Below are positions 33,705 to 44,526 of a stretch of DNA of 49,671 nt, in pieces. Made by a program: the position numbers and the translations under genes. The notes beneath the pieces are model-generated. The model was not told the origin of the DNA. It saw nothing but the letters and a program-made list of their open reading frames with translations, and did no database searches. Within the stretch, counting starts at the first letter, position 1, and each line of letters opens with the position of its first letter. This DNA is from Chitinophaga pinensis (lineage in GTDB: Bacteria > Bacteroidota > Bacteroidia > UKL13-3), in the NCBI GenBank assembly GCA_945898275.1, contig CAMDHZ010000020.1, positions 1-49,671 on the forward strand, given 5' to 3'.

Positions 33705-35531
33705 TCACATCAAATCTCTCACCACTTGCTCTGCCATCCAAAAGCCTAAGAGTCGCTGGTCTGCAATGATGTCTGATGTTTTAAGTTTTCTTTTCAATAC
33801 CAATCCTTCTAAGATTCTACAACGACTCAACGCAGTATATACTTGCCCGTTTACAAACGCACCACTGCCCAAATCTACCACCACTTTATCAAAGCTCAAA
33901 CCCTGACTTTTATGAATGGTTAAGGCCCAAGCCAATTTCAAGGGAAATTGCGTAAAAGTTCCTACCACTTCAGAGGCAATCTTGCGGGTATCTCTGTTAT
34001 AAACATACTTGCGATGTTCCCAAGTAGTGGGCTCTAACTTGTGAATGCTACCATCTTGCAGGCGTATTTCAATATAATTCTCACTGATAAAATCTACTTT
34101 GGCCAAAGTGCCGTTTACCCATCGCATAGAAGGTTCATTCTTTAACAAAATTACCTGAGCATGTTGCTTGAGTTCTAAACGCAAAGCTGTTGGATATTTG
34201 TCTTCCTTATAATCTCCAGTAATCTTTGCTTCAAATACATGCGAATTGCCTAGCAAAGCCTCTAACTGACGCCTGTTTTCCGTATCTGCAATCTGGTTGC
34301 TGGTACACAAATTCATTTCAAAATCATCACCCGATGATTGGTAATTTGGCTTTACCCTTTCATTGAGTTCTTCAATCAGATGATAATCTACATTACATGT
34401 TCTAACCTTATCTAACAATTGTACAAAATATAAATCATTGGCTTGCCTGTGACTTTTCTGAAACTCTACAGTAACTGGCGCGGCCACTTTGTAAGCAGGA
34501 GCATCAAAAAAGTACATGCTCTTATATTCCTCCGAAAACAAAATTCTTTCTGCTTCACTGTTTTGGTTTACCACTGGTGGCAACTGAAAAATATCACCAA
34601 CAAACAGCAATTGTTTACCTCCAAAAGGCAGGTTTCTATCGCCCCCATTGATGCGTAAAGAATAATCAATTGCCTCCAAAATATCTGCACGTAACATGCT
34701 CACCTCGTCTATTATAAAGGTGTCTGTTTGATGAATGATTTTATACTTCTCAGAAGTTTTTGCAAAGCGAGTAATCTCATCATCTTGCGGTAGCATGGGT
34801 TTAAACGGAAACCTAAAAAAGGAATGAATGGTTTGCCCACCAACATTAATAGCTGCAATGCCAGTAAAAGCAAGTTTTATTACCTTCTTTCTTGTGGTGG
34901 CATCAAAATAGTGGATAAAGGTAGATTTTCCGGTACCCGCCTTTCCTGTGATAAAAAACGGCTCTTGAGAATACTCTATTCTTTCAAACAATTGTCTAAC
35001 GATGGCATTATCGGCATAACCAGGTGGCAACTGACTTAACTTACTGTAAAAGTCGGGTAGTTTGGGTTCATCAAAAATGGCATATTGCTTTGGCTCACTT
35101 CCTTCATCCAAAGCCACTTCGGCCAAAAATTTCACATAAGCTTCAATGGCAGAAAAAGGTTTGAATATATCAAAGTCGGTACCCGCATGCGCAAATGTTT
35201 TAAGGATAAAATAACAGCTCCTAAAAAACGGTTCCTTTTGATGGGGATGCGCATTTAAAAAAGCTTCTACCTTTTTGGGTTTTAGCTCAATGCCAATAAA
35301 TTGCAAATACACAACAGCCTCTTGCATGGCGGTCAATTCCTGTGCATTTCTTTCTTGGTAAACCAATTGAAAATCGGCAGGCGCTTCTTTAAAATCTCCA
35401 CTGCTGCCAGAGCCATAGAACAGATGGTGTGCCAAAGCTTTATTCAATGCGCCTTCTTCCCTATTTGTAAGCGGTGAGGCCAAGAAGTTTTGCACCCAAG
35501 TACGCAGCAATTTTGAAACGGTATCAGACAT
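33705..35531 (-). CDS. Pif1/RecD-like superfamily 1 helicase
   Basis: A 608-residue helicase. An N-terminal region (residues 1-190) without an obvious motif precedes a Pif1-like core. This core has Walker A GKAGTGKST (196-204, Lys202), TGIAAINVGGQTIHSFFR (motif Ia), IIDEVSML (Walker B, 275-280) and GDIFQLPPV. The later FQKSHRQAN and the C-terminal 2A fold LAWALTIHKSQGLSFDKVVVDL and YTALSRCR complete it. It probably unwinds DNA with 5'-3' polarity in replication or repair; polarity is family knowledge. It ends 20 nt from the TA toxin gene, convergently. Confidence 0.88.
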   Translation of the reverse strand: MSDTVSKLLRTWVQNFLASPLTNREEGALNKALAHHLFYGSGSSGDFKEAPADFQLVYQERNAQELTAMQEAVVYLQFIGIELKPKKVEAFLNAHPHQKEPFFRSCYFILKTFAHAGTDFDIFKPFSAIEAYVKFLAEVALDEGSEPKQYAIFDEPKLPDFYSKLSQLPPGYADNAIVRQLFERIEYSQEPFFITGKAGTGKSTFIHYFDATTRKKVIKLAFTGIAAINVGGQTIHSFFRFPFKPMLPQDDEITRFAKTSEKYKIIHQTDTFIIDEVSMLRADILEAIDYSLRINGGDRNLPFGGKQLLFVGDIFQLPPVVNQNSEAERILFSEEYKSMYFFDAPAYKVAAPVTVEFQKSHRQANDLYFVQLLDKVRTCNVDYHLIEELNERVKPNYQSSGDDFEMNLCTSNQIADTENRRQLEALLGNSHVFEAKITGDYKEDKYPTALRLELKQHAQVILLKNEPSMRWVNGTLAKVDFISENYIEIRLQDGSIHKLEPTTWEHRKYVYNRDTRKIASEVVGTFTQFPLKLAWALTIHKSQGLSFDKVVVDLGSGAFVNGQVYTALSRCRILEGLVLKRKLKTSDIIADQRLLGFWMAEQVVRDLM

Positions 35532-35615
35532 TTAAAAGCAATAAAATGAGAGCACAAATTAACGCTAATTCTTTGGGCTCAGTAGTCATTTTTATTATAA
35601 AGTTTAGTCGGTTTC

Positions 35616-35625
35616 GGTTTGAACC
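35616..35625 (+). repeat. Iterated palindrome GGTTTGAACC (promoter of paralog 1)
   Basis: Preceded by TTTC and followed by AAAAG; 20 nt upstream of the -7 box. Confidence 0.8.
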
Positions 35626-35653
35626 AAAAGAGTGGGAGAATTTAATATATTTG
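35616..35653 (+). promoter_or_regulatory. Promoter of lipoprotein paralog 1, with palindrome
   Basis: TATATTTG (35646-35653) is an exact -7 box. The word GGTTTGAACC at 35616-35625 lies exactly 20 nt before it. No TTG occurs at the normal -33 distance. The unit is nearly identical to that at 36381-36418. Confidence 0.55.
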
Positions 35654-35685
35654 AGATATGCATTTGGTTTATTCCAAGTAAGATA

Positions 35686-36327
35686 ATGAAAAACAGAACA
35701 CTACTTCTTTTGATGGCATTTATATACTTAACTCAAACAGCCTGTAAGCAAAGGCAATTTGGTTATTTGAGTAAGGTTAGGGTGAAGCAAGAAAACGTAG
35801 GATTCTCAAATATGACAAAAGTAAAAACTAATTTACCAACAGATACCAGTTTAGATCATGAAACATTAATTAATGTATTTGCTGCACAGGAACCGCAGTC
35901 AACCTATGGTATTGTTTTATTCCAAGGGGTGCGCCCTAAAATTGGAGCAAATACTAATAGCAATTCGCCTATCGATACGGCCAAAGCTAGGCTCAATACC
36001 AAGGAAAGCAAAAAGCCAAAAACCATCGAACCTAAAAACAATACAGAGGCTGATATTGCAATTATATTAACGGCATTTCATATCATTTCAATATTTGGAT
36101 ATAACGGTTTATTGTTATTGTACAGTGCAGATGATTGGCTAATAATAAGTGCCTTCTTCCTTGTTTTTGGGTTTGGCTTAATCATACTTTATTTTGCTGT
36201 AAAAGGTCTATATTATTATTTTACACACAGAAAAAATAAAGGACTAATATTTTCAAGTTTGGCATTTATTTATGCATCTATTATAGGTGGAATATTTTTC
36301 TACTTTTTATTGTATTACCTTTTTTAA
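35686..36327 (+). CDS. Lipoprotein paralog 1 with C-terminal membrane segments
   Basis: A 213-residue protein from the ATG at 35686. Signal and lipobox end at Cys20 (LTQTAC), followed by KQRQFGYLSKVRVKQE, a stretch nearly shared with the next gene. The middle (residues 35-130) is low-complexity and Lys/Pro/Thr/Asn-rich. The C-terminal third contains three hydrophobic segments with a basic joint (YFTHRKNKGLIFSS), resembling the DUF4190-type membrane module. The combination of a lipid anchor and integral segments is unusual. Function unknown. It lies between a convergent/divergent helicase and its paralog, each with its own promoter. Confidence 0.65.
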   Translation: MKNRTLLLLMAFIYLTQTACKQRQFGYLSKVRVKQENVGFSNMTKVKTNLPTDTSLDHETLINVFAAQEPQSTYGIVLFQGVRPKIGANTNSNSPIDTAKARLNTKESKKPKTIEPKNNTEADIAIILTAFHIISIFGYNGLLLLYSADDWLIISAFFLVFGFGLIILYFAVKGLYYYFTHRKNKGLIFSSLAFIYASIIGGIFFYFLLYYLF

Positions 36328-36380
36328 GATTACTCCTTATAAGAGACTATATAAAAGAAGATAAATAATTATCATGTTTC

Positions 36381-36390
36381 GGTTTGAACC
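36381..36390 (+). repeat. Iterated palindrome GGTTTGAACC (promoter of paralog 2)
   Basis: Flanked by TTTC and AAAAT; 20 nt upstream of the -7 box. Confidence 0.8.
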
Positions 36391-36418
36391 AAAATAGAGG
36401 TAGAATATGATATATTTG
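36381..36418 (+). promoter_or_regulatory. Promoter of lipoprotein paralog 2, with palindrome
   Basis: GGTTTGAACC (36381-36390) sits exactly 20 nt before TATATTTG (36411-36418). The surrounding bases also match paralog 1: TTTC before, AAAA after, and GAAT before the box. Confidence 0.55.
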
Positions 36419-36453: not shown

Positions 36454-37089
36454 ATGAAAAAAAAACTATACTATTTGTTTATTTTGTCTTTATTATTTCA
36501 TCTTAACGCTTGTCAACAAAGGCATTTCGGGTATCTAAGTAAGGTTAAAGTAAAGCAAAACCCTACCCAAAATATTGCCAAAGAGAAGAAAGAAATTAGC
36601 GATAAGAAAGAAACTGAAAACAGTGAAGCTGAAATTGTAGAAGAAATAATTTCTGCTGAAGCAGATTCTACTGCTAACCTAGTTGGTTCAAACCGAAACC
36701 TAATTGGCAAAGAACCAATTGAAACAAAAGAAATTAAACGTAACAAAGAAACTCAAACCAAAAGGAGTTTTCCAAAGGATAAAAAACAATATGACAGCCC
36801 AAACATACCTGCTTATATCGCGCTTGCATTGAGTGTGATTAGTTCTACAGGGATACTACTTGACTTACTCGTATTAGATGAAGGTGTATTTTTTATACTT
36901 GCAATGATATTGGCTATACCTATCTTAATTTTAGGCATCATTGGTTTAAATAAATACAGAAGAGAAAAGGCTAGAGATGGCTATGCTGCCTCGATTATAG
37001 CAATTGTTTATGGGAGTTTAGCAATCCTATTTTTTATAATTCTTCTAATAATTCTGTTAGCGATTCTTTCAACCGGAGGATTTTATTAA
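36454..37089 (+). CDS. Lipoprotein paralog 2 with C-terminal membrane segments
   Basis: A 211-residue relative of the preceding gene. Lipobox ends at Cys20 (FHLNAC) and is followed by QQRHFGYLSKVKVKQN, matching KQRQFGYLSKVRVKQE of paralog 1 in 12 of 16 positions. The middle (40-115) is a charged Glu/Lys-rich linker, where paralog 1 is Pro/Thr-rich. The C-terminal part has three hydrophobic segments around GLNKYRREKARDGYAASIIAIVYG, again DUF4190-like. The products are probably surface- or envelope-bound, but no function is visible. A GGTTCAAACC word is present in the CDS at 36685. It is followed 22 nt later by an S9 peptidase. Confidence 0.65.
   Translation: MKKKLYYLFILSLLFHLNACQQRHFGYLSKVKVKQNPTQNIAKEKKEISDKKETENSEAEIVEEIISAEADSTANLVGSNRNLIGKEPIETKEIKRNKETQTKRSFPKDKKQYDSPNIPAYIALALSVISSTGILLDLLVLDEGVFFILAMILAIPILILGIIGLNKYRREKARDGYAASIIAIVYGSLAILFFIILLIILLAILSTGGFY
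36685..36694 (+). repeat. Iterated palindrome GGTTCAAACC (copy in paralog 2)
   Basis: Context TTGGTTCAAACCGAA; read in frame as G-S-N-R. Confidence 0.8.
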
Positions 37090-37111: not shown

Positions 37112-39508
37112 ATGAAAAACTCAATTATTCTCTTATTAATTTTTGCAAGCTTAAAAGGCTTTGCACAAACCTCTTATCAACTACCACCCAAAGAAATTCT
37201 TGAATTGGCAGATGTAGCCGCACCTGCGCAATCTATGGTGAGTAAAAGCAACAAGTACCTTCTATTAATGGAGCGCCCTCTTTACAAAAGCTTGGAAGAA
37301 CTCTCAGAGCCTGAGTTACGCCTTGCAGGTTTACGCATTAATCCTGAAACCTTTGATGCAGCTCGCAGTAGTTATTATACTAAACTTACTTTGCAATTGC
37401 TTCAGGGTAATAAACCCATTGTGTTATACAATTTACCTTATCCCTTAAAAGCAAAAAATATCAGCTTCTCCCCAAAAGAAAACTACCTAAGTTTTATTCA
37501 GGTAAACCCACAAGGTTTATCGCTATGGGTAGTTAATTTAAAAACAGCCCAGGCCAATGAATACTTAAGAAATGAGTTGAATAATGTGCTTGGAAATCCT
37601 TACACTTGGGCAAATGACGAATCGGGTGTTTATGCTCAAAGCAAAAAAGGTAAACTCCCCTATAAAACTAATAATGTCCTGCCAAACGGCCCTTCCACCC
37701 AAGATGCAAATGGATCTAAATCTGCTGCTAGAACCTACCAAGACTTACTAAAAAACAAGCAAGATGAGGCCCAATTTAAATATTACGCGGCTTCAGAAAT
37801 TGTGTTTGCAAGTTTTGATGGCAGCACAAACACTGTACTTCCAGAAGCTATTTACAAGCGATACAGCCTTTCGCCAGATGAAACCTATTTGTTATATGAG
37901 ATCATCAATGAGCCTTATAGTTACTTGTTTCCTTATTCCTTTTTTGCAAGTCAAACCTATATTTTTAATTTAAAAAACAAGACAAATGAGTTGTTCTATA
38001 GTAGACCTTTACAAGACCAAATGCCAATAAGTTTTGATGCGGTGGAAGCTGGCAAACGAAACATCTTTTGGCACCAAGCAAAGCCATCCACTTTAATTTG
38101 GTTTGAAGCGCCTGATGGCGGCAATCCTGCGCAAAAGGCAGACCGTAGAGATGACGTTTATATAAGCGATGCACCATTTAATCAAACAGTACTATTGGGT
38201 TCCTTGCAAAATAGGATTAGAAGTATTACCACTTCTGAAGCAGGGATTTATATTATCAGTGATTTTTGGTATAAAACACGTAACACCAAAACATATTACA
38301 TTAATGAAAGAATTCCAGGCGCTCAAAAAATTATATTTGATAGAAGCACAGAAGATGTATATAGCGACCCAGGTAGTTTTGTTACTGAGAGCAATCAGTT
38401 TAATAGAGAGTCTCTCAAATTAAGTAAAGACGGCCTTAAATGTTATCTTACAGGTGAAGGCTACTCACAAGAAGGCAATAAACCATTTATAGACGAATAC
38501 GACCTAAACTTAATGCAAACCAAACGGCTTTGGCGTGCAGATGGCAAAACCACTTATGAGCGTTTATTGCGTATAACAAATTGGGAAAAAATGATTGCTT
38601 TAACCAGCATCGAAAGTCCAAAAATGTATCCCAATCTTTACCTTAGAAATTTAAAATCGTCTTCAAAACCTATTCAAATTACGTTTAAAGAAAACCCTTA
38701 TAAAGCCTTGATGCAGGTGAGTAAACAAAAGATTTTTTACACTAGAAAGGATGGGGTTAAACTATCGGCCACGCTTTATTTACCAGCAGAATACTCAAAA
38801 GAAAAAATGGGTCGTTTACCTTTGTTAATGGAAGCCTATCCAACAGAGTTTAAAGATGATAAAAACGCTTCACAAGTAAAAGAGTCGCCACATGCTTTTA
38901 TTGCAATCAATTGGGCATCTCCTATTTATTGGGTAACACGTGGTTATGCCGTGTTAGAGGATACTCAGTTTCCAATTATTGGCAAAGGCGACCAAGAGCC
39001 CAACGACACCTACCTTGAACAATTGGTGGCCGACGCAGAAGCTGCTATAAAAGCAGTAGATAGCATGGGTGTGGTTGATCCTAAGCGTTGCGCTGTGATG
39101 GGCCATTCCTATGGTGCATTTATGACGGCCAATTTATTAACTCATTCCAAGTTATTTGCAGCAGGCATTGCACGCAGTGGTGCATACAATAGAACCTTAA
39201 CGCCTTTTGGGTTTCAGGCAGAGGAGCGAAGCTATTGGCAGGCCAAAGAAGTTTATCAAAAGATGTCTCCATTTACTTATGCAGACCAACTCAAAACACC
39301 AATTTTGTTTATCCATGGTGATGCTGATAATAATCCTGGCACTTTTACATTACAAAGCGAAAGGTTGTTTCAGGCCGTTAAAGGAAATGGAGGAACTGCT
39401 AGGTTGGTGTTATTACCATTTGAAAGTCATGGTTACGCAGCAAGAGAAAACATCCTACACATGCTTTGGGAAATGGATACTTGGCTCAACCGCTACCTAA
39501 GCAAATAA
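37112..39508 (+). CDS. S9 family (prolyl oligopeptidase-type) serine peptidase
   Basis: A 798-residue secreted peptidase with signal peptide MKNSIILLLIFASLKGFA. The N-terminal beta-propeller-like region (about 30-540) is followed by the alpha/beta hydrolase domain. Nucleophile Ser666 sits in MGHSYGAF, Asp739 in HGDADNNP and His773 in ESHGYAA. The KLSATLYLP and GYAVLEDTQFPI segments are typical of the glutamyl-endopeptidase-like S9 group of Bacteroidota, though substrate preference is uncertain. It overlaps the convergent porU2 gene by 16 nt. Confidence 0.88.
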   Translation: MKNSIILLLIFASLKGFAQTSYQLPPKEILELADVAAPAQSMVSKSNKYLLLMERPLYKSLEELSEPELRLAGLRINPETFDAARSSYYTKLTLQLLQGNKPIVLYNLPYPLKAKNISFSPKENYLSFIQVNPQGLSLWVVNLKTAQANEYLRNELNNVLGNPYTWANDESGVYAQSKKGKLPYKTNNVLPNGPSTQDANGSKSAARTYQDLLKNKQDEAQFKYYAASEIVFASFDGSTNTVLPEAIYKRYSLSPDETYLLYEIINEPYSYLFPYSFFASQTYIFNLKNKTNELFYSRPLQDQMPISFDAVEAGKRNIFWHQAKPSTLIWFEAPDGGNPAQKADRRDDVYISDAPFNQTVLLGSLQNRIRSITTSEAGIYIISDFWYKTRNTKTYYINERIPGAQKIIFDRSTEDVYSDPGSFVTESNQFNRESLKLSKDGLKCYLTGEGYSQEGNKPFIDEYDLNLMQTKRLWRADGKTTYERLLRITNWEKMIALTSIESPKMYPNLYLRNLKSSSKPIQITFKENPYKALMQVSKQKIFYTRKDGVKLSATLYLPAEYSKEKMGRLPLLMEAYPTEFKDDKNASQVKESPHAFIAINWASPIYWVTRGYAVLEDTQFPIIGKGDQEPNDTYLEQLVADAEAAIKAVDSMGVVDPKRCAVMGHSYGAFMTANLLTHSKLFAAGIARSGAYNRTLTPFGFQAEERSYWQAKEVYQKMSPFTYADQLKTPILFIHGDADNNPGTFTLQSERLFQAVKGNGGTARLVLLPFESHGYAARENILHMLWEMDTWLNRYLSK

Positions 39509-42500
39509 ATCTTCCCTGTATTTTGAATGAAGTACTGCGATTCGTCTTTGGCGCGGGTGGTTCTATGTTCAATGGACTGACCATTTATTTGGGTAAATAC
39601 TTGGTATAAATAAACCCCATTTGCCAATCTATCGCCGTACATGTCTGTGCCATCCCAAGCAAATTCGCTAATGTTATTTCCAATTCGGATTGAACCAAAC
39701 TCCTCTTTGCGAATTTCTCTTACAACCTTACCATTTATCGTTAAAATTCTAACCAAAAGTTGCTCTGGAACCACCGAACCCGTTAAGGTAAAAATAAAGC
39801 GCATTTGTGTGGTAAAAGGATTTGGATAAGGATAAAAATGCGTAATTGAACTTTTGCTAATTACATTAAAATCTATTTCATAATCGTTTGCACCTGCAAG
39901 GTTTCCGCTGGCGTCTTTTGCATTTACTTTTAAGGTGTAAATACCATCCTTTTTAAAGGCAGGTTTATATTCAAGCGCCGCTCTGTTATTAGCATCTAAG
40001 GCCGGAATAAAATTCAATTCGCCATTACCAATAAATACTCTTTGAAACTCAAATTCGCCCGGCACTTTTAAATACAAACTAAAATTAGCAGTGTCTTGCT
40101 GAAGTAGGTAAGGATTTTTGTCCGTAGCACTAATTCTAATAAATGGTGAAGGCGAAACGATGTCGCCATTAAAAATGCGTTGCCCATCAAAAGTTACCTC
40201 CAAATATGGATTTTGTTGGTCGCGCAATACCTCAAAGTCTTGTTGTAAAAAGTTATTGTTATAGCTAATTTCTGGAACAAGTTTGTTTGGATTAAGTTGA
40301 ATGCTGAGCTTATGTTTCCCTTGCAAACTCTTGGTTGGCAAAACCACTTTTATGCGTTCCTTAGACTTAGCAGCAATACCTGGGATTTTCCAATTGGCAC
40401 TCCAAGCATTGAAACGATTGGCATCTGTGGCTTGCGCAAATACCCAAACACTATCCGAAGTTTTATTGCTAATATTTCTAGCAGTAAGTTCTAATCGCAC
40501 TGAATCTCCTTGAGGCAATTGTCCTTTGTAGAAGGTATAATTATCATTTACATCAAGGGTTAATTCGCTTACCGGCGTATAAACCACCTGCGCATAATTA
40601 ATAACATGTGGCGTTCTGTTTATACTGTCTACAAAATGAAATTTTAATTTCAAATAAGGGAAACGTTTTGCGTCAATCGTATTTACTGAAAACTCAGTTT
40701 GGTTCAAACAAACATAAAAAAATGTGTCTACCCCAAGTTGATTTACCCCAATAACGTCATACCACCATCTGCCATTGCCTTGCGCTTCTGTTTCTGATAA
40801 GCTTACTTTAACTTTATCATAGGCCAAGGCTGGACCAATAGGTGAGGTTGTGAAATCGCCTTCGAACCACCTTAATACAAAGTTCTTACGTATGGAAAAC
40901 TTTAAGTTGTCTTGAGGGTCATTTGGCCCTGGAGGAAATGCTGGAAAAAAACCATCATTATAAACGGTATCCTCCACTGCAGAACCGGGTGCATCACCTT
41001 TTTTACCAATAATTGCCCAAGCGGTGTAATCGCTACCAACTTGCCGAACCTTTTGGCCCCCAATTTTCAAAAATGCATTTTTTGTGGCTTGCTCCCACCT
41101 TGGGATACTTGTTTGGTAGCGGCTAAAAGCAGCAACAAAGTATCCATTTGGAACTGAATCTACAAATGTTCTAAATGCTTGTTCTCCTTCTATTGTATTG
41201 GTATTAAAAGGATAATATCTATTGCTTTGCCTATTTTTATTGTTTTGAACATAAGTACAGTTAAAAGGATAATTAGGAAGTTCATAAGGCCAATCTACTT
41301 GAAAGGGCTCAAACACTAAGACCACCGTACCTTGAGACATGCAATTAAAAACACCTTCGTTAAGTAAGTAAGGAATTGTAACACCCATATTTCTAGCATC
41401 CCAACGGCGGTTCTCCATCCCTAGCACTAACTCATTATTGCTAAAGGAAATGCGCTGCAAACTGTCTTCAAACACTATGAATCGGGTTGCACTTGCTTGT
41501 TTTAATTGCGCATACTTATCCTGGTGCCAACCTTCAACATTTGCCTTGATATGCGTAAAACTTTGGCCACTCCAAATGCCACCTTCTGCCTCTGGCAGGT
41601 TTTGTTTCACACGCCAAAACCAAGTTAAGGAATCATTAGCAGGAATGCGCGTTTTCCATTGAACTAAATGCTTGGCTTTTATAACCCCAGAACTCAAATG
41701 GTACATTCCGCTTGAAGCAAAATTTACAGCGGTATCAAGCTCCATCACATACTCTGTTTCTGGCGCAAATAAATTGTTATTTTGAGCCATCAGCGTTAAG
41801 GTATCAGAATTGACAATTGCAAACTTAGCAGGCAACAAAGCTTGCACACCACTGCCTGGCAAAAAGTAACTTAGGGTTGCCTCATTGTTTTGAAAATTAC
41901 TTTCGGCCAAGGACTTTGCCTTATTCAAAATTACCTTAAAGGCATTGTTTCCAATTTCTTCTGTAGATAGGCCTTTTATCCAAAAATAAAAGGTATCTTG
42001 GTTCAAAGGCGCAATAACTTTCAAAGGCTCAAAAGTTATCAGTTTGTTGTTTGCCAAAGTTCTTTCAACTTCAATGACAAGGGTATCATTGGTATTTGCT
42101 TTTCCGTTGTTAGAAAGTATCATTCCAATGGCTAAGGAGTCATTTTGAACCGTTGCATTTTCAGGAAATACAAATAAATTGTTTGCACTCACAGCATAAT
42201 CTGCTAAAGCTGGCGCGTATAAAACTAAAGCTGGGTCTGCTTGCAACAACAATTGCAAGGCATGGGAGCGACCAAAAGGTTCATTGCCTGCAGAACTTTG
42301 TTGTAAAATTGCTTTGAGGTTTTCACCAATAGGCTTGCCGTAACCGGCCCCACTTAATTGCTGGTAAAACAAGCGCATTTGTTGTTCTAAGAAACTTGTA
42401 AAAGTTAAGTTGGTATGCGCCAACCAACCAATTGCGCCTTTATTGGCAGCGCAAATAAAATCTTTGCCATACACCAAGCCTGTGCCCAATGGGTCAACTT

Positions 42501-44526
42501 CATTGGCATTACCAATATTACAACCATTGAAATAATAAAATGCGGGTTTGTTGCTAGGACTTAACTCTTGAATGCCGCCAAAATCCATGTCCAAAACTGT
42601 AAGCGAACCATGACCGTAAAAGGTGAGTAGGTTCAAACCATTATTTTGATGATTGATAAGTGTTTCCTTCAGTTTGTTTTCTGTGGGCTCGGTGCTCGAT
42701 TTAAAATATGAAAGTAAATTAGCACCTACTGGAGCATCTAATACTTCATTACCAATTGAACGAAGTTGGTTCCTAAAATCTGCTTGTTGCCCAGCATTCT
42801 CTCCTCCGCTTAAATGCATGTAATTTTTGCGCCATGAAGCAATACTGTCTGGGCGAGTTTCGTAAGCAATTAGTTTATCTAAATAATTTTGAACTTCGGT
42901 ATTGGAGGCAGCAGGAATTCTTCCAGTGGCAATTGCTGGCGCTCCATCATTTCCTATTAGGCCATTAGTAAACAAATTATCAGAGGAGGGAACACCAATA
43001 GAAGGAACTAAATTTAAATTATAATTTATTGAATTACTTCTAATCAAATTATTCTGATACCCTCTCCCTAACAACAATAAGAAGTTAGGCTTCTTAGATT
43101 GCTTGTCATAAAAATGCGCAGCAAACCTTCTAAGCGCTAAAGGATGCTCATACCCGTAGGCATAAAAATTATATAAGTCGGGGGTAAAGGCCAACAAAGT
43201 TTGAAAACGCTGTGAGCGATAATTTGCATAGGCATTGGCAGATGTCTCTAATTTAGGGTGAGAAACCAATAGAAACTCAATATTGGAAGGAGAAAAATTA
43301 GGGATAGTAACTTTTTGAATACTAGCTGGCACCAAAAAGTCTGAGGCTTCCTGCAAATAAATTGTACGTGGCCCAGATACATAGGGCAATAGCACTTGTG
43401 CAAGGTTACTTTGCTTTTGTCCCACACTTCTAACACCTGCTTTTACATCCCAAGCGATGGGTGTATTACCTGTGAAATTATTGAATTGCAGCAAAGTTTT
43501 TGGAGCATTGATAGGATTTTGTAAAACCAGTTTGGCATGGCTACCTGGCCAATCTGTTCCTTTGCTATAATTAAGTTGCACATAAGAAATACCAATAAAG
43601 TCTGAACCAACCGATAAATCATTCACCACTTCAAACCTAAAACGCAAGGTATTTCCTGCCAAATTTGAAGGTATTTGCTTTTGTATCACACGCGGTCCAT
43701 AACCTCTAAAGGTTGTATCACACATTAAAAATTCTTGGTTGTTTGCAGCTATGGCATAAATCCGCAAATGGTGATTAGGCGCATTGGGATTAGCCAAAAA
43801 GAAATCAGAAGAACCATTTACCTTAATTTCAGCAGTAGCAGTTTGTCCGCCGAGCCAGTTGGGTGTAGCAAAGGTTTGGGTTCTGGTTTGACCCAAGCCT
43901 ATTAAATAACTCATCATGCCCTCGGCACCTCCGTAATCACTGACATAATATTTAGCACTAGCAGGAATGAAACTTCCATAAAAGTAATCTTCCATTGGTG
44001 CCCAAAAATCACTTAGCAAAAACTGGCTTTCTGGCGTGTAGGCATTGTAATCGTTGGCAATATAGTTGGTAAATCTTAGGGGTTGAACCAAAGAAGTATC
44101 TGGCAAAACAGTTAGAAAATATACAGAGGTATCGGTATACTGACTTCTAAAAGTATGCGGTTGTTCTTGGGCATTTACATATAGTTCTTTGTCTAAATTG
44201 CCTGAATTGGGTTCGCCATAAAATGCCAAATAATCTGTTGCATTAAAAACATTATCTGTTGCCCCTTGCAAAAAAATTGGCAGCTCTACCCCATCTCTAA
44301 ATACTTGGAAACGGTTTGGGTTCAACCCGACCAAATTAAAGCCTGCTGCTTGCATTGCAGCTGAATCTAAACGGTAAATGCCCTTATCTATCAACTTTAT
44401 TTTAAGGTAAGGCATATAAGGTCGAAGCCACTCGAAGCCATACTTTTTCTGTGCTTGTAGGCTTGAGGCCAAACTCGTGGCCAAAATAAATAAGGCAATA
44501 CAGGTTAAATTGCAGGTCTTTTTCAT
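39493..44526 (-). CDS. porU2: T9SS C25 peptidase, putative sortase PorU2
   Basis: A 1677-residue protein with a Sec signal peptide (MKKTCNLTCIALFILATSLASSLQA). The C25 (gingipain-like) cysteine peptidase domain, about residues 410-780, has the catalytic His639 in YGHGSL and Cys669 in FNGCNIGN. Immunoglobulin-like and beta domains follow. The C-terminus has YPYPNPFTTQMRF, WDGTDMYGDRLANGVYLYQV, a FlgD-like/T9SS-type end. Typical PorU is about 1150-1300 residues; the greater length and architecture fit the PorU2 group, sortase-like proteins of the T9SS that cleave the C-terminal signal and attach cargo. Sortase activity itself is inferred. It is transcribed in a minus-strand position with no partner por gene. 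Confidence 0.85.
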   Translation of the reverse strand: MKKTCNLTCIALFILATSLASSLQAQKKYGFEWLRPYMPYLKIKLIDKGIYRLDSAAMQAAGFNLVGLNPNRFQVFRDGVELPIFLQGATDNVFNATDYLAFYGEPNSGNLDKELYVNAQEQPHTFRSQYTDTSVYFLTVLPDTSLVQPLRFTNYIANDYNAYTPESQFLLSDFWAPMEDYFYGSFIPASAKYYVSDYGGAEGMMSYLIGLGQTRTQTFATPNWLGGQTATAEIKVNGSSDFFLANPNAPNHHLRIYAIAANNQEFLMCDTTFRGYGPRVIQKQIPSNLAGNTLRFRFEVVNDLSVGSDFIGISYVQLNYSKGTDWPGSHAKLVLQNPINAPKTLLQFNNFTGNTPIAWDVKAGVRSVGQKQSNLAQVLLPYVSGPRTIYLQEASDFLVPASIQKVTIPNFSPSNIEFLLVSHPKLETSANAYANYRSQRFQTLLAFTPDLYNFYAYGYEHPLALRRFAAHFYDKQSKKPNFLLLLGRGYQNNLIRSNSINYNLNLVPSIGVPSSDNLFTNGLIGNDGAPAIATGRIPAASNTEVQNYLDKLIAYETRPDSIASWRKNYMHLSGGENAGQQADFRNQLRSIGNEVLDAPVGANLLSYFKSSTEPTENKLKETLINHQNNGLNLLTFYGHGSLTVLDMDFGGIQELSPSNKPAFYYFNGCNIGNANEVDPLGTGLVYGKDFICAANKGAIGWLAHTNLTFTSFLEQQMRLFYQQLSGAGYGKPIGENLKAILQQSSAGNEPFGRSHALQLLLQADPALVLYAPALADYAVSANNLFVFPENATVQNDSLAIGMILSNNGKANTNDTLVIEVERTLANNKLITFEPLKVIAPLNQDTFYFWIKGLSTEEIGNNAFKVILNKAKSLAESNFQNNEATLSYFLPGSGVQALLPAKFAIVNSDTLTLMAQNNNLFAPETEYVMELDTAVNFASSGMYHLSSGVIKAKHLVQWKTRIPANDSLTWFWRVKQNLPEAEGGIWSGQSFTHIKANVEGWHQDKYAQLKQASATRFIVFEDSLQRISFSNNELVLGMENRRWDARNMGVTIPYLLNEGVFNCMSQGTVVLVFEPFQVDWPYELPNYPFNCTYVQNNKNRQSNRYYPFNTNTIEGEQAFRTFVDSVPNGYFVAAFSRYQTSIPRWEQATKNAFLKIGGQKVRQVGSDYTAWAIIGKKGDAPGSAVEDTVYNDGFFPAFPPGPNDPQDNLKFSIRKNFVLRWFEGDFTTSPIGPALAYDKVKVSLSETEAQGNGRWWYDVIGVNQLGVDTFFYVCLNQTEFSVNTIDAKRFPYLKLKFHFVDSINRTPHVINYAQVVYTPVSELTLDVNDNYTFYKGQLPQGDSVRLELTARNISNKTSDSVWVFAQATDANRFNAWSANWKIPGIAAKSKERIKVVLPTKSLQGKHKLSIQLNPNKLVPEISYNNNFLQQDFEVLRDQQNPYLEVTFDGQRIFNGDIVSPSPFIRISATDKNPYLLQQDTANFSLYLKVPGEFEFQRVFIGNGELNFIPALDANNRAALEYKPAFKKDGIYTLKVNAKDASGNLAGANDYEIDFNVISKSSITHFYPYPNPFTTQMRFIFTLTGSVVPEQLLVRILTINGKVVREIRKEEFGSIRIGNNISEFAWDGTDMYGDRLANGVYLYQVFTQINGQSIEHRTTRAKDESQYFIQNTGKIYLLR
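42630..42639 (-). repeat. Iterated palindrome GGTTCAAACC (copy in porU2)
   Basis: Read on the minus strand in frame as G-L-N. Confidence 0.8.

Follow-up and report, generated by a model that had tools for sequence, protein, structure and literature searches.

In an uncultured Bacteroidetes bacterium, two neighbouring lipoprotein genes each lie behind a copy of one promoter, and in both promoters the near-palindromic word GGTTTGAACC precedes the -7 box at the same distance. This raises the question of whether the shared spacing is part of a control code, or was inherited when the promoter was copied. We addressed it in the window, i.e. the whole stretch of 49,671 nucleotides that holds the locus, in the genome it belongs to (G000), and in further genomes of the genus, of which we know of no cultured member. 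According to the preliminary description, GGTTTGAACC precedes TATATTTG by exactly 20 nt in front of each of the two genes, in agreement with the coordinates determined here (Table 1), the distance from the 10-bp core to the box being 20 nt in both promoters. The encoded paralogues share 27% identity over 206 aligned positions, and both carry a lipoprotein-like signal in their sequence.

Table 1 Features of the duplicated lipoprotein locus, in window coordinates.
Feature	Position	Strand	Remarks
PIF1-like helicase gene, left neighbour	33705..35531	-	also adjoins the locus in G008 and G005
TTTCGGTTTGAACCAAAA, first promoter copy of the word	35612..35629	+	core 35616-35625
TATATTTG, -7 box, promoter 1	35646..35653	+	
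Lipoprotein paralogue 1, 213 aa	35686..36327	+	
TTTCGGTTTGAACCAAAA, second promoter copy of the word	36377..36394	+	core 36381-36390
TATATTTG, -7 box, promoter 2	36411..36418	+	
Lipoprotein paralogue 2, 211 aa	36454..37089	+	
Extra word copy (16/18), within the paralogue 2 coding sequence	36681..36698	-	
S9 peptidase gene, right neighbour	37112..39508	+	also adjoins the locus in G008 and G005

The duplicated promoters agree in the block from word to box, with the 18-mer identical at 18/18 positions, the 20-nt gap at 15/20 and the box at 8/8, as compared to 10/30 directly upstream of the word and 10/26 directly after the box. As the gap is kept at 15/20 positions without insertions or deletions and the next 26 nt at 10/26, word, gap and box are constrained together. 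The word, previously described as a palindrome, is present at both sites, but it is imperfect, with the arms GGTT and AACC placed around TG, and it therefore has an orientation. Located about 30 nt 5' of the start codon in both genes, TATATTTG is a -7 box of the form TAnnTTTG, which is described as the sigma-A consensus in Flavobacterium psychrophilum (PMC9723704). Across 440 upstream regions, TANNTTTG is found in 135 copies versus 42.9 after shuffling, and the most frequent place of TTG in this genome is 18-20 nt ahead of this box (28/135 boxes). Neither of the two promoters has TTG at this usual spacing; the sequence there is CCAAA, adjoining the word, and the sole TTG near the -33 region of both promoters is the word's own, at a gap of 24, which is seen in 8/135 boxes (a figure not broken down further). 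The word was consequently rejected as the usual -33 element, its TTG lying at gap 24 and the genome peak at 18-20. It is nevertheless placed on or beside the -33 region, so that a local contribution to the promoter is conceivable. A minor role as a local upstream promoter element is possible, because in the four promoters, i.e. both copies and those of two sister genomes, the gap region has changed less than the 5' UTR. Most likely, the promoter is an ordinary duplicated promoter of the sigma-A type.

The origin of the spacing becomes apparent from two sister genomes, G008 and G005, in which the same helicase and S9 peptidase genes enclose a single lipoprotein gene. This gene is orthologous to paralogue 2 (76% identity in G008, 49% in G005), while paralogue 1 has its best genus matches, at about 30% identity, in paralogue 2 and in the lipoprotein genes of the two sisters, with nothing closer than about 30% in the genus. 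The G008 promoter carries the exact word, a gap of 20 and an upstream flank in common with promoter 1, whereas the G005 promoter has the one-base variant GGGTTGAACC and a gap of 19. The preliminary description named loss or displacement of the word in sister genomes, at unchanged expression, as refuting evidence; at the sequence level this is observed in part, word and gap being altered in G005 but unchanged in G008. Since the same block with a gap of 20 stands before the single G008 gene, and the flank is common to promoter 1 and G008, the spacing came with the copied promoter, which supports the earlier suggestion of a relic of the duplication. The shared 20-nt spacing was thus most likely inherited and is unlikely to represent a control code. 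Most simply, promoter and gene were duplicated in tandem in this lineage and the first copy then changed fast; an older duplication followed by losses in G008 and G005 is possible, the timing resting on parsimony. As the similarity of the duplicated units starts about at the word, crossing over between two word copies was also considered as the origin of the duplication, but found no support, for neither here nor in the sisters G008 and G005 is the gene followed by a word.

Further features of the locus deserve mention. At the extra word copy inside paralogue 2, the peptide GSNRNLIG is kept in three species, including G008 and G005, and the surrounding linker differs. Among remote homologues, for which the upstream regions of 13 of 15 loci were examined (all except L006 and L009), nine with 23-29% identity to paralogue 2 have no same-strand word close upstream at up to 3 mismatches in 14; two of these nine (L014 and L015) display a 3-mismatch match about 218 nt upstream. 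These word-less homologues refute nothing, their status as orthologues being putative. On the minus strand beyond the locus (39493-44526 of the window), a large protein with Peptidase_C25 and FlgD-like domains is encoded, which we take to resemble the PorU type of secretion peptidase.

The proposal that the word acts as an operator or activator site can be assessed by the recurrence of its spacing, its orientation and its position relative to genes, and these mostly speak against it. In the whole genome, 20 copies of the word have TANNTTTG behind them with a gap of 10-30 nt, and a gap of 20 occurs in two of these 20 combinations, both being the pair described here. Across the genus, 137 such combinations are present in 15/19 genomes, and the gap is 20 in four, compared to a mean of 6.5 per gap class; the four comprise the two promoters described here, that of the orthologous gene in G008 and one case in G006, so that three represent this locus. 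In a 1.25-Mb sample, which includes the window and makes up 35% of the genome, the 80 nt following the 306 words in forward reading hold 23 -7 boxes versus 24 reversed boxes, and the words in reverse reading 27 boxes versus 15 reversed boxes, a mild unexplained excess with no peak at one gap; no gap preference of -7 boxes behind words was detected in this sample. The gap counts, covering 1.25 Mb and 19 whole genomes, rule out a 20-nt spacing rule. Separately, another word is followed by TATATTTG at a gap of 30 in an arrangement near-identical in three species (G000:C5:145186-145233, G008:C26:12238-12285 and G005:C20:29456-29503). Regarding orientation, the 440 upstream regions contain the forward word in 17 and the reverse word in 15 cases, i.e. 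without preference. With respect to position, 14 words fall in the 10.7 kb of intergenic DNA between convergent genes, 14 in the 33.5 kb between divergent genes and 31 in the 53.3 kb between codirectional ones. The density is hence highest between convergent genes (excess p = 0.005), with a deficit between divergent genes (p = 0.10), and this convergent-rich and divergent-poor distribution is the opposite of what is expected of a promoter element.

What, then, is the word? In the whole genome, GGTTTGAACC is present in 391 and 394 exact copies on the two strands (785 in total), as compared to 20 and 9 for the reversed-word control. It exceeds the reversed control in 19/19 genomes of the genus, with 46 to 1318 copies, while 22 genomes outside the genus (6 from other genera of the family, 16 of the class) have 0-20 copies, with 0-33 for the control. 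The window alone includes 14 exact copies of the 10-mer, 37 at up to one mismatch versus 3.66 expected, and 13 matches to the 18-mer at up to three mismatches versus 0.26 expected; this excess is not special to the two promoters, because the 10-mer is abundant across window and genome. In the 1.25-Mb sample, 306 copies are found versus 5.9 expected, and 12/12 of the top-ranked over-represented 10-mers are pieces or variants of the word, including GGTTTGACCC (45 versus 1.4 expected) and GGGTTGAACC (55 versus 2.4). Flanking preferences, such as A at +12 in 95% of copies, extend the word in the sample to about TTTYGGTTTGAACCWAA. Using a simple rule rather than annotation (ATG-started ORFs of at least 90 aa, longest first), 245 of the 306 sampled copies are located in ORFs, 100 on the same and 145 on the opposite strand, and the remaining 61 lie outside ORFs, where there is only 8.6% of the DNA (p = 6e-10). 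The spacing of copies is near-random (mean 3993 nt, CV 1.13). Pairing of words as terminators was rejected, since 10 neighbours are closer than 100 nt versus 7.3 expected, with mixed orientations.

The word sites are moreover kept at the DNA level, whether a promoter is nearby or not, over short evolutionary distances. In G008, of which 67.3 kb of the 563.6 kb given could be aligned with the G000 sample, 17/19 word sites are exact (14/16 coding, 3/3 intergenic) versus 1078/2341 control 10-mers (p = 1e-4). In G005, 5/12 window words are exact versus 10.9% of control 10-mers, 11/12 have at most one change and the twelfth has two, with the changes at positions 3, 5 and 8. Third codon positions within words are identical in 49/50 cases in G008 versus 424/540 in the flanks (p = 3e-4), and in 26/29 versus 190/356 in G005 (p = 1e-4); being more often identical in words than in flanks, they demonstrate retention of the DNA sequence itself. 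The promoter copy is kept no better than other copies, being exact in G008 and with one change in G005. At 64-71% identity, 3/29 sites are exact over G003, G004, G013, G014 and G015, and the retention is therefore a short-range result; the 4,740 nt aligned of G012 hold no word site.

The word also differs between species. The family shares the core GGTTYGAACC, of which GGTTCGAACC is a perfect palindrome. GGTTCGAACC outnumbers GGTTTGAACC in three of the 19 genus genomes, with 300 versus 60 sites in G012, 272 versus 71 in G010 and 186 versus 46 in G016, as compared to 30 versus 785 in this genome. In G017 its count is at or close to the control level, G015 and G018 have few sites (6 each), and the samples of G004 and G014 display words of the CTGAACCAA type beside GGTTCGAACC. 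The string GGTTCGA is also found in the T arms of tRNAs; tRNA genes were rejected as the source of GGTTCGAACC, as 300 sites exceed any tRNA gene set. Other repeated words were noted in the G015 sample, where ATCGCGTCTC/GAGACGCGAT is found 10 times versus 0.0 expected (L113-L117), and in G021, from another genus of the family, where CTACTGATTAC/CTGTCTACTGA words are strongly repeated, perhaps as tandem or dispersed repeats (L133-L137).

Based on these data, we consider it probable that the locus represents a duplicated promoter that passively carries a genus-wide word, with an inherited gap and a role of the word outside transcription. The ancestral promoter would already have possessed one copy, in the TTTYGGTTTGAACCWAA dialect, beside its -33 region, of a word with hundreds of copies per genome in this genus, and the promoter with its TANNTTTG -7 box would have been duplicated in tandem along with its lipoprotein gene. 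As the word is retained at the DNA level in coding as well as non-coding sites, it persisted in both promoters even as the genes grew apart. That the gap is 20 nt in both would stem from the duplication combined with the usual intolerance of promoters to insertions and deletions, in agreement with gap 20 forming no recurring word-to-promoter rule. As for the word, its most likely function is recognition across the genome, outside transcription, through a putative sequence-specific binding protein that possibly acts as a dimer.

For the kind of recognition, two alternatives have to be weighed. The word may be a self-recognition sequence of the DNA-uptake type in a naturally transformable genus with species dialects, the promoter copies being passive residents. 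Such a function is consistent with hundreds of genus-restricted copies on both strands, in coding and intergenic sequence and in excess in permissive intergenic DNA, as well as with the tolerated positions, the dialect changes between species, and DNA-level retention together with site turnover. The machinery argues in a different direction. No full-length type IV pilus ATPase (PF00437, T2SSE/PilB/PilT) was identified in 16/16 genus genomes searched (all except G016-G018), where PF00437 yields short weak matches only, one in G003 covering 54 positions slightly over the cut-off, versus E near 1e-130 in four class-level genomes; a receptor pilus of the Neisseria type is therefore not seen. The ComEC family is present in 25/25 genomes searched, as it would be in a transformable genus, but also in 10/14 controls, e.g. 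E. coli, and is hence uninformative as a competence marker. Considering also the near-palindromic shape and the lack of an excess of close inverted pairs (neighbours of all orientations counted), we regard uptake as a possible but somewhat doubtful function.

Alternatively, the word may be the target of a putative abundant chromosome-binding protein or orphan methyltransferase, a role that may also apply to HIP1 of cyanobacteria, again with passive promoter copies. The palindromic core, perfect in the GGTTCGAACC dialect, would fit a dimeric binder or a modification enzyme, and the near-random spacing of copies is compatible with such a target. A strict methyltransferase site is ill-suited to the extended flank preference and to the many tolerated one-base variants, and we regard this identity of the word, too, as possible but somewhat doubtful.

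Least compatible with the data, and in our view improbable, is that the word is a regulatory element of both promoters (an activator site, operator or upstream promoter element by the -33 region) with the 20 nt kept for function: word, gap length and box are indeed kept in promoters 1 and 2 and in G008, and the gap region is more conserved than the 5' UTR and the flank upstream of the word, but gap 20 does not recur and is 19 in G005, the word has no preferred orientation upstream of genes and is densest between convergent ones, most sampled copies lie in ORFs, and retention of the copy in this promoter does not exceed that of the rest.

Returning to the passively carried word, we tentatively propose, with less than even confidence, a more general principle: the genus would maintain a self-perpetuating, dialect-forming word (GGTTYGAACC family) as a mark of its own DNA, to be recognised in pilus-independent (type IV) uptake, in recombination or in chromosome organisation, via a putative dimeric binder, with promoters and genes as hosts and tandem duplicates carrying copies along. 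The promoter finding itself, a duplicated promoter, is ordinary. The significance lies in the palindrome being a genus-restricted iterated word in Bacteroidota, with species dialects and retention at synonymous positions. Should it truly serve as a code for self-recognition in the absence of type IV pili, it would provide a new setting for the old question of the purpose and spread of such words. In the literature covered, which included few subscription papers, no uptake-type or HIP-type word was found described in Bacteroidota/Bacteroidetes; the letters of the word do turn up in papers, and among the part of these checked by title none is about such a word.

In its distribution, dialects and turnover, the word behaves like two known systems, the DUS of Neisseriaceae and HIP1 of cyanobacteria. 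With DUS (PMC3630211), the likeness includes a 10-mer that is over-represented on both strands, with hundreds of copies, dialects that differ between species but have part of the word in common, frequent occurrence within genes and an intergenic excess. The same source gives about 1900 copies for N. meningitidis, more than the 785 here, and the near-palindromic core is a further difference to DUS. Neisseria DUS also form frequent close inverted pairs at terminators, unlike the word of this genus. With HIP1, the word shares that a short palindromic sequence is iterated genome-wide, with flanks that are extended in some species (PMC4390886). The two differ in the core, GCGATCGC in HIP1 and GGTTYGAACC here, in the imperfect centre of the main dialect, and in the strong dialect change within one genus. 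We therefore file the word under the general kind of genome-wide iterated words, as a member set apart from both DUS and HIP1.
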